From NCBI RefSeq assembly GCF_900109735.1, contig NZ_FOAS01000011.1, positions 1-64,000 on the forward strand: a DNA stretch of 64,000 bases, in the 5' to 3' direction. Both the position numbers and the translations under genes were made by a program. Source of the DNA: Atopomonas hussainii (GTDB lineage: Bacteria > Pseudomonadota > Gammaproteobacteria > Pseudomonadales > Pseudomonadaceae). Under the pieces are notes generated by a model that was not told where the DNA came from, did no database searches, and saw only the letters and a list, made by a program, of their open reading frames with translations. Below are positions 20,609-22,734 of this stretch, one piece after another. Within the stretch, counting starts at the first letter, position 1. Each line of letters starts with the position of its first letter.

Positions 20609-20713
20609 ACTAAGTGGTGGGCGTGGTGTGGCGCTTTGGGTGTGGGTCGAAGTGGTAATGTTCCTTTAAATAATAGTTTGGGTTTTCTTGTGCGAATATT
20701 TAATTTGAAGTTG

Positions 20714-21055
20714 ATGATTTTTATGGGGGCTTCATTGTTTTTTGGTTTTAAATTATTTCTGCTGATTGATGGTGCGTTTGATCGTGACGAGTGGGTGCGA
20801 CCTGTTACTAATCAAGAAAGTGCTGGCTGTTATCGTGGTGCGATGGTTGAGGACCTGATTGCAAGGCATCTTTTCGTTGGTATGAGAAGGTCTGATGTGG
20901 TTGCCCTGCTGGGCCAGCCGGACTATAGGTCTGGAACTGGCGAATTGCAGTATGTACTGGGAATGTGTAGTGGGGTTGGTTTCGATTATGACTATCTAAA
21001 TATTTATTTTGATGGTGCGGGTGGTTTTGTGAGTGCGAAGGTTTTTCAACATTGA
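20714..21055 (+). CDS. BamE/SmpA-like small membrane-anchored protein
   Basis: 113 residues from the ATG at 20714 (start uncertain; no good ribosome-binding site, frame open from 20636). A hydrophobic N-terminus (MIFMGASLFFGFKLFLLI) is followed by a domain with LFVGMRRSDVVALLGQPDYRSGTGELQYVLG, the helix-turn and G-x-P pattern of BamE/SmpA-type folds, and a closing FDYDYLNIYFDGAGG strand. There is no lipobox. The reading frame is clearly richer in A/T than everything around it, with T-rich codons, so it is probably a recent arrival. Function unknown. Confidence 0.6.
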   Translation: MIFMGASLFFGFKLFLLIDGAFDRDEWVRPVTNQESAGCYRGAMVEDLIARHLFVGMRRSDVVALLGQPDYRSGTGELQYVLGMCSGVGFDYDYLNIYFDGAGGFVSAKVFQH

Positions 21056-21140
21056 TGCTGGGTATGGGGTGGTGTGATCGGAAACTATAGGGCCGGGGGT
21101 ATTTGGGCTTGCTATTGAAGTGAGATTTAAAGATCTGATT

Positions 21141-21704
21141 TCGCCTCCCGGCGACTTACTATTCTTTGCGAAAGAATAGTATGCACAAGAAACAGGCCCC
21201 CGCCATTGGCCCGGCTGCGCCGGGTTCCCTCGCTCCAGGTTTCTTCGGCTTTGGCATCCTGCGTCGCCCTAACTCCTGCATCCATGCAGTCGTCCAGAGG
21301 CCCAGCCCTATGGGCCATCCATGGCCCATAGGGCTTTGCGCGGCATCCATGCCGCTTAACCTCTTCCAGAAACCTTCCACTCGGCCTGCTGAAGGGGGCA
21401 TTGGTGCAAGTCGATGGCTTGGCGGTTTGCAGGTTGAGCTACAAAAAATACTTAGCGAAGCCATCACTGATGGTGCGATTTGCACCAACCGCCCCTTTTA
21501 TCCGGCTGAGTGCAGGCTGGCTGTAGTGGGGTAAGCCGCAGGGATGCGGCGCAAGCGGCGATGGGCCATGGAGGGCCCTTCGCCGTGGCCCCATGAAAGC
21601 CTGCCGGAGCGAAGGTATCCAGCGCAGCTGGACCGGATAGTGGGGCAAGCGCTTTTGGTTACTTTTGGCGCGACTGCCAAAAGTGACTCGCCCGGGAAGG
21701 GCGA
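21141..21704. repeat. 564-bp non-coding element: two inverted, homologous, hairpin-rich modules around a central stem
   Basis: No gene is supported between 21056 and 21868. Module A (21141-21355, read on the minus strand) and module B (21535-21704, plus strand) share the same series of hairpins: GCGGCAT-GG-ATGCCGC versus GCCGCA-GGGA-TGCGGC; a long GGGCCATGG stem; CCCGGC-GCA-GCCGGG versus TCCAGC-GCA-GCTGGA; an ACT...AGT stem of 9-10 bp; and TCGCC-GGGA-GGCGA versus TCGCCC-GGGAA-GGGCGA. Stem bases change in pairs between copies. The centre holds a further long-range stem (21401-21409 with 21480-21488; 21413-21420 with 21458-21465). I have seen similar sequence between genes in Pseudomonas genomes but know no accepted name or function. 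Confidence 0.75.
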
Positions 21705-21868
21705 AACAAATGGGTTCAGCAAGCTCAGTAATCAGCTTAACCCTGCCAATGGGTTGCTCACCGGTTGGTTGACCAAATGCATTTCACTCGATGCGATCGG
21801 TAATCAGCTTGGCTCAATATGTCAGAGATTCTTGCGGCATTTCGGGGTGGTTATCTCGCTGGTACCGG

Positions 21869-22663
21869 CTAGCCATTTCCAGCCATCACCCCTTCATACA
21901 GCCCGGTAATCTCATGCATTTTTTTCAGCAGTTGCTCGCTGGTGGTGAAGATCACCACCGGCACGTAACGCTGTTCGTCGGTGAGGCGGAAGCCGGCTTG
22001 TGAGAAGCGCCATTGCATGGCCACTTTGTTGAGTTTTAGCTTGATGTCGGCGGTGTTTTCTTCGGCGTTTTGCAGGTATTGCAGGGCTTGGTCGAACTCG
22101 TTAACCGCCTGTTGGAATTGCGGCGCGAGGCTGTCGTCGTTAATCCGCCAGCTCAGTGCTAAGTACAGTTTGGCAATGCGCTGGCTGAGCATGCGCTGGC
22201 GGCCTGAGCGGTTGACCAGCACGGCGCTGTGGCTGCCGGCGTGGGCTTCGATCAGCTTGACCACGTTTTCGCAGGCGCCGAGCAGTAAATCGCTTTGGCT
22301 GAGCAGGGCTTGGGCGGTGGTTTTATCGGGTTGGCGCAGGGCGTGTTCGCGGTAGTCCTGCCAAATCAGGCGCACCCGGCCCAGTGCTTCGCGCACTTCT
22401 TGCGTGGGGGCGTAGGCGTCCAATTGTTCTAGGTTGCTGTCAAACAGTGCCAAGGCATCGTCGAGCTGCTGTTGCGCAACATCCGGGCGTACATCTTGGC
22501 CAAGCATGAGGTAGGCCTTGGCGATGCGTTGGCTCAGCATGCGCTGCAAGCCCGACATGTTGACGGCTTCGGCATTATTCAGCACGGCCTGTGCCGGGAG
22601 TGACGCAACGGCCAGTAAGCAGGATAAGAGCAGGGCAAATACAGGATTGCGTGAGGTGTTCAT
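21869..22663 (-). CDS. Exported PilJ-N-domain (nitrate-sensor-like) protein
   Basis: 264 residues from the ATG at 22663, where AAGGAG sits eight bases upstream and a signal peptide begins (MNTSRNPVFALLLSCLLAVASLPAQA); the frame is open a little further. Two copies of a PilJ-N/type IV pili chemoreceptor N-terminal domain are visible: NMSGLQRMLSQRIAKAYLML and, about 130 residues later, NRSGRQRMLSQRIAKLYLAL. There is no transmembrane helix, HAMP or signalling domain after them, so it is a free periplasmic protein. Related domains bind nitrate in NarX/NIT-type sensors. Downstream of, and on the same strand as, the porin with a sigma54-like promoter. Confidence 0.82.
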   Translation of the reverse strand: MNTSRNPVFALLLSCLLAVASLPAQAVLNNAEAVNMSGLQRMLSQRIAKAYLMLGQDVRPDVAQQQLDDALALFDSNLEQLDAYAPTQEVREALGRVRLIWQDYREHALRQPDKTTAQALLSQSDLLLGACENVVKLIEAHAGSHSAVLVNRSGRQRMLSQRIAKLYLALSWRINDDSLAPQFQQAVNEFDQALQYLQNAEENTADIKLKLNKVAMQWRFSQAGFRLTDEQRYVPVVIFTTSEQLLKKMHEITGLYEGVMAGNG

Positions 22664-22734
22664 GGGCAGCTCCTTGCCAAGGCGCGTGAAAGCAGATGAA
22701 AGACGCCGGAGCAGCACAGCGCAGCCCCGGCAAA

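Follow-up and report, generated by a model that had tools for sequence, protein, structure and literature searches.

A dispersed, probably mobile TwoAYGGAY-type repeat of Pseudomonas relatives, with two GGA hairpin loops that suggest an RNA sponge for RsmA/CsrA

The window, i.e. the whole 64,000-nucleotide stretch of Atopomonas hussainii DNA that was analysed, carries an element lodged between a plus-strand gene (20636-21055) whose product is weakly BamE-like, below the cut-off, and a minus-strand gene (21869-22717) coding for a protein with a PilJ domain. The element is made of two divergent copies, A on the minus strand and B on the plus strand, of one module of about 214 nt, both lying within 21139-21706. 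Its features are listed below in window positions, which equal the positions in the fetched locus L001 plus 19599.

21105-21738, no strand: whole divergent element; ends approximate, set by eye from the conserved extensions beyond the module 3' ends of own-genome copies
21139-21399, minus: module A at full length (model 1-214), including the 48-bp insert; nhmmer, L001 1800-1540, E 3.7e-38
21491-21706, plus: module B at full length (model 1-214); nhmmer, L001 1892-2107, E 2.3e-46
21298-21362, minus: TwoAYGGAY core of module A with two GGA hairpins; RF01731, 46.1 bits, gathering cut-off 43
21528-21592, plus: TwoAYGGAY core of module B with two GGA hairpins; RF01731, 33.8 bits, below the gathering cut-off of 43
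21340-21355, minus: module A hairpin 1, loop ATGGAT, putative RsmA/CsrA-type site; from the sequence, loop GGA in 35/35 core copies
21304-21335, minus: module A hairpin 2, a 15-bp palindrome with GGA at the tip (CATGGATG); inverted-repeat scan, loop GGA in 34/35 copies
21535-21550, plus: module B hairpin 1, loop AGGGAT; from the sequence and the RF01731 alignment
21555-21586, plus: module B hairpin 2, loop ATGGAG; from the sequence and the RF01731 alignment
21141-21181, minus: module A 3' terminal hairpins (ACTATTCTTT stem; TCGCC-GGGA-GGCGA); from the sequence, terminal hairpins present in the 35-copy consensus
21658-21706, plus: module B 3' terminal hairpins (ACTTTTGGC stem; TCGCCC..GGGCGA); from the sequence, inverted repeat and 35-copy consensus
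21400-21490, no strand: spacer separating the 5' ends of both modules; borders from the profile search
21245-21292, minus: 48-bp insert nested in module A and carrying a TGCATGGATGCA hairpin of its own; absent from copies such as L003-L005, the same piece occurring in other contexts

An initial annotation, made from the letters alone, had described two inverted hairpin-rich modules whose stems change while remaining paired, and all the stems that it quoted were located where it had placed them. CCCGGC-GCA-GCCGGG of module A, in minus-strand reading, matches TCCAGC-GCA-GCTGGA of module B; GCGGC-ATGGAT-GCCGC (21340-21355, minus) matches GCCGC-AGGGAT-GCGGC (21535-21550); the ACTATTCTTT/AAAGAATAGT stem corresponds to ACTTTTGGC/GCCAAAAGT, and TCGCC/GGCGA to TCGCCC/GGGCGA. 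The palindrome at 21304-21335 has exactly the 15-bp stem and 2-base loop that had been reported. Two further descriptions hold in part. The three palindromes centred on ATCCAT are present, but the third (21277-21288) is part of the separate 48-bp insert (21245-21292) and not of the module. The long-range stem seen in the middle of the element (arms 21392-21413 and 21476-21497) consists largely of the homologous 5' ends of both modules, placed face to face.

The 48-bp insert (CGACTGCATGGATGC...GCCGA, 21245-21292 on the minus strand of module A) brings its own ATGGAT hairpin. Four exact pattern matches lie in the own genome, against 29 modules; the pattern is present in 10 of 57 genomes, the own one among them, and G051 has 12 copies. 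Pieces about 80-100% identical were found in unrelated settings (L046, L056, L060, L021, L315-L318, L335): within CCCTCTCCC..GGGAGAGGG repeats of the genome G008, within other repeats of G051 that have an uninserted copy next to them, and within the BREX gene pglX in 2 of 5426 E. coli genomes, Salmonella and Moellerella. In this last setting the relatives listed are 18 nt shorter, so that the piece is not a plain 48-bp addition there. From these contexts, the piece looks like a separate mobile insert.

The modules belong to a dispersed repeat. A BLAST search with this stretch of the window returned 42 pieces from the own genome, counting the stretch itself. A profile search of the fetched loci resolved 14 places with 29 modules in all, some of them truncated; 13 of the places hold a divergent pair (the locus L019, which repeats L015, was omitted and a copy split by an insertion was counted once). 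The full-length module of about 214 positions was found in 129 copies over all fetched material. The relatives G008 and G024, of another genus, yielded at least 37 and at least 31 fetched sites, respectively. The covariance-model search of relatives that the initial annotation had proposed detected the repeat in at least 88 of 148 genomes of the family and, class-wide, gave matches in at least 25 genomes outside it (369 searched; 27 matched, two of them, the own genome and G015, being members of the family), several of these outside genomes holding more than one copy. The copy numbers are minimum values and some copies may have been missed, as the best 40, 20 and 8 candidates per genome were scored in the sets of 57, 148 and 369 genomes, respectively. 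Additionally, scanning named records with a pattern drawn from hairpin 1 only returned at least 80 loci, mostly from Pseudomonas and Stutzerimonas, with two from Atopomonas and four from three metagenome-assembled genomes; the names suggest that the family is Pseudomonadaceae. Among the matches listed, all 80 named loci hold a module and 110 of 114 matches span the whole 159-position model. The statement of the initial annotation that related sequence lies between genes in many Pseudomonas genomes was thus borne out by both the genome and the named-record searches.

Two contigs of the own genome, C23 and C24 (L002, L003), end at the identical base just beyond module A (..GGCGAAATCAG); the assembly may break at the module repeat and own-genome copies may be missing. 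The whole element was unmatched in plasmids, where the three matches obtained concern the 48-bp insert only, and the element was unmatched in phages. The module core pattern was present in six viral contigs, and in one of them (IMGVR_UViG_3300009076_001527, L323) it lies within 500 bp of the 48-bp piece; this contig may be host DNA.

The claim that structure is under selection was examined on 35 of the 129 full-length copies, kept by k-mer non-redundancy (94 left out). Two-sided compensatory changes were observed at 30 of the 39 core pairs. In this core alignment, 95.4% of the cells are paired, against 79.3% after shuffling, and covariation reaches 0.505 against 0.190 in shuffled and 0.079-0.119 in slid alignments; slid controls preserve relatedness and shuffles do not. 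None of 500 shuffles attained the observed value by any of five measures. For 23 copies from distant families, covariation was 0.751 against 0.173 in an alignment whose fitting to the model biases it in that direction. The consensus fold covers about 175 nt and includes a multiloop. Compensatory change thus stands far above both kinds of control, as the initial annotation had anticipated.

The two strands are not equivalent. In the 68-pair full-length fold of the 35 copies, the strand that carries the GGA motifs shows 154 G·T against 33 A·C mismatches, and the own best fold of the opposite strand shows 47 G·T against 71 A·C. The same bias was found on the GGA strand in the core (79 vs 12) and in the distant copies (34 vs 16), and the folding energy of the GGA strand is the lower one in 35/35 copies. 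The excess of G·U over A·C points to selection acting on the RNA read from the GGA strand, and it disfavours a cruciform or other strand-symmetric DNA structure. The structured RNA of the initial annotation is borne out by covariation together with this asymmetry.

That annotation knew of no named family, which proved wrong: the family is Rfam RF01731, TwoAYGGAY, whose gathering cut-off (43 bits) is passed by module A (46.1 bits) and missed by module B (33.8 bits). The AYGGAY loops are ATGGAT twice in module A and deviate in module B (AGGGAT and ATGGAG); over the 35 copies, the loop strings are more variable than AYGGAY. At least 22 of 57 genomes, own included, have RF01731 matches (at least 38 in the richest genome), and 14 of 57 have matches above the cut-off. 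Eleven named loci, all matched by our own model R1, were scanned with RF01731; four have a match above the cut-off (five matches) and seven have none, so RF01731 covers only part of what R1 matches. The best match, in P. nitroreducens (L205), reaches 58.9 bits over positions 1-168, the entire model. The description of TwoAYGGAY dates from 2010 and names human gut, gamma-Proteobacteria and Clostridiales as its sources (PMC2864571); a prediction of CsrA binding followed in 2014 (PMC4333381), and Rfam 15 lists two added covarying pairs (PMC11701678). In the published open-access articles searched, no recognisable account was found in which TwoAYGGAY, or any RNA that binds Rsm/Csr proteins, is a dispersed repeat. 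As far as these searches show, the life as a dispersed repeat, the divergent neighbours and the matches outside the family with kept loop GGA are new. That the module is a structured RNA related to TwoAYGGAY is almost certain.

The GGA hairpin loops, absent from the initial annotation, are the most telling feature of the module. GGA is present in the loop of hairpin 1 (column 52) in 35/35 copies and in that of hairpin 2 (column 81) in 34/35, and the two columns are 28 nt apart in 28 of the 35 copies. CATGGATG and CAGGGATG are the strings seen most often in the loops. The two hairpin loops, which take the form CANGGANG or are CAGGA-type and lie about 28 nt apart, are kept while the stems are rewritten. 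The same was observed in 23 distant-family copies drawn from 18 of the 25 positive outside-family genomes: the stems are heavily rewritten and GGA is kept in 23/23 copies in loop 1 and in 21/23 in loop 2, two copies being without it (the loop-1 GGA of L313 lies inside a longer inserted stretch). ANGGA occurs 3.06 times per module against 1.43 after shuffling (range 0-6 per copy), and the total number of GGA is hardly above the shuffled value (7.97 vs 7.38). Several GGA motifs, at least two of them in hairpin loops, is the arrangement by which Csr/Rsm sequestering RNAs are recognised, and it is found here. GGA hairpins in pairs have been described to serve the CsrA dimer (PMC4333381).

Stems rewritten around fixed GGA loops are the trace expected of an RsmA/CsrA clamp site, and the two loops that stay fixed resemble docking sites of this kind. 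The loop consensus resembles the CsrA site. We consider with good confidence, judging by loop conservation and spacing, that the modules bind RsmA/CsrA. The gene csrA is found in 25/25 genomes with the RNA and in 48/55 without it (Fisher p 0.09); this correlation over 80 genomes does not discriminate. Besides the modules, the own genome has one RsmZ match and one RsmY match. RsmZ (RF00166) has exactly one match in 23 of the 36 genomes searched; 8 and 10 matches above the cut-off were found in G017 and G032 (genus g18), where it makes a second multi-copy Rsm RNA.

Neighbouring modules are nearly always divergent: among 49 pairs no more than 600 bp apart, 44 are divergent, 5 tandem and none convergent, and among the matches listed for the named loci, partly from the same genomes, the 33 neighbour pairs divide into 28 divergent, 4 tandem and 1 convergent. 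A module can also stand alone, and pairing is therefore dispensable: many sites hold a single module, namely 32 in G008, 17 in G024, 1 in the own genome and 6 in other genera.

Several observations bear on mobility. Judged by their flanks, 12 of the 37 sites fetched from G008 correspond to 11 of the 31 fetched from G024; for three of the 12 (L080, L086, L096) a single flank agrees. Two further pairs of the 14 with shared flanks, L065/L099 and L074/L112, were discounted as weak or paralogous. At L064/L125 and L088/L108, orientation as read from flank coordinates shows a single module that is reversed between the two species, and other shared sites hold a single module in one species and a pair in the other. 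The flipped sites could also have arisen if an ancestral pair lost one of its halves. The comparison of occupied and empty sites that had been called for was made at one G008 site: the module is present in 2 of 25 genomes of the same genus and the right flank lies downstream in 9 module-free loci, but the aligned spacers of the relatives carry other repeats, so that there is no clean empty site and the junction is unreadable. No target-site duplication could be read in these aligned spacers, nor was any detected by eye at the module ends of the own genome. There, 27 module 3' ends were aligned, two cut by contig ends; the outward ends are alike (..AATCAGCTT..), with a shared extension of about 32-34 nt beyond ..GGCGAAA after which conservation fades. 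The proposal of a transposable element is hence made plausible by copy number and presence/absence, but the target duplication was not found; to judge from the distribution of copies, the repeat is likely mobile. One module B copy (L015:128-1650, contig C36 of the own genome) is split by about 1.3 kb that contain a 391-aa open reading frame, with model positions 155-161 matched on both sides; the product presumably resembles the DDE integrase of an insertion sequence.

How these RNAs would act has several competing answers. Three open reading frames of more than 100 residues (109, 122 and 121 aa) overlap the element, and small proteins encoded by them could be thought to explain its conservation. 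This explanation is practically discounted, a shared frame being refuted: any one frame is open in at most 44 of the 129 full-length copies, whose lengths fall in all three classes modulo 3, and none of the three frames has a Pfam match at the cut-off. The suspicion that such small ORFs are mis-called is borne out to this extent, and the protein-coding explanation was rejected on these grounds. A more serious, though still unlikely, alternative is a cis-acting element of untranslated regions, i.e. a 3'-end stabiliser, a terminator-like structure or an RsmA-dependent switch for the neighbouring genes, whose dispersal would be a by-product of tolerated insertion behind genes. Such an element would account for the position between genes, for the Cis-reg type given to RF01731 in Rfam and for the enrichment in gaps between convergent genes, which in counts resting on a simple gene caller is significant in G024 (15/31 against 12/86 for the remaining gene pairs of these loci, p 0.0003) and not significant in G008 (13/34 against 25/97, p 0.19). 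Two inward-pointing terminator-like hairpins at the window copy also agree with it, 1.0 being expected by chance. It is weakened by the orientation relative to neighbouring genes, which is not fixed where gene orientation was compared, and by the variation of the same site in orientation or in single or paired state between related species.

A DNA-level element, whose hairpins a transposase would bind in single-stranded DNA form, like RAYT with REP/REPIN, and whose loops would be the signal of that enzyme and not of RsmA, is quite improbable. It would fit the REPIN-like inverted-pair layout, the full-length unit ends, the copy-number spread and the presence/absence pattern. The excess of G·T over A·C fits RNA better than DNA, although part of it could also arise on a DNA strand; the loop consensus is CsrA-site-like; and a fold of about 175 nt with a multiloop is unlike REPs, which are about 25 nt long.

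The conserved loops, the strand asymmetry and the dispersal instead suggest a spreading RNA sponge for RsmA/CsrA. Transcripts of the modules would run outward from the centre or come from read-through. Against this reading, a scan of the window copy for sigma-70-type promoters found none in 20950-21900, and no outward terminator-like site was found there. Each transcribed module would present two sites, plus weaker ones, for one RsmA/CsrA dimer to clamp, and the repeat would form a spread-out decoy on top of RsmY/RsmZ, propagating as a non-autonomous mobile element by means of some enzyme. We lean moderately towards this chain as a whole, i.e. a dispersed, probably mobile TwoAYGGAY-type repeat whose RNA clamps RsmA/CsrA as a decoy; a decoy acting in trans and an element acting locally are about evenly balanced. 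More tentatively, and rather doubtful at present, mobile or mobilised repeats, selfishly dispersed and often in divergent pairs, in tens per Pseudomonas-family genome may titrate RsmA/CsrA, their copy number setting the threshold of the Gac/Rsm switch and varying by species. Should RsmA/CsrA binding hold true, a large class of Pseudomonas intergenic repeats that lacks an explanation, with its spurious small ORFs, would join the Gac/Rsm network and this repeat family would be a plausible source of variation in Gac/Rsm-controlled traits. For the orphan TwoAYGGAY family, this would mean a far larger alignment with strong covariation and a partner that can be tested, and whether bacterial repeats act in trans becomes directly testable.

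Among known repeats, R26, R178 and R200 of P. fluorescens, set side by side from their description, are likewise intergenic; R26 (352 bp) and R200 (320 bp) are comparable in size to the present element and a tail-to-tail gene bias is described for the repeats of that study (Silby 2009, PMC2718517). The sequestering RNAs RsmX/RsmY/RsmZ and CsrB/CsrC resemble the module in having multiple GGA motifs, of which two sit in hairpin loops that would suit an RsmA/CsrA dimer, but here there are tens of dispersed copies, divergent pairs and no recognisable promoter at the window copy. The REP/REPIN sequences of Pseudomonas are also intergenic, highly repeated, arranged in inverted pairs and rich in hairpins, whereas the unit is here of about 214 nt with a complex covarying RNA fold; the REP-like repeats lying beside the module are sequences that we take to be separate. 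The closest relative remains TwoAYGGAY (RF01731) itself, with which the module shares two adjacent hairpins with GGA loops and, in some copies of relatives, a match to the whole model, and from which it differs by a longer unit that includes terminal hairpins and by its multi-copy, dispersed and often divergently paired occurrence.
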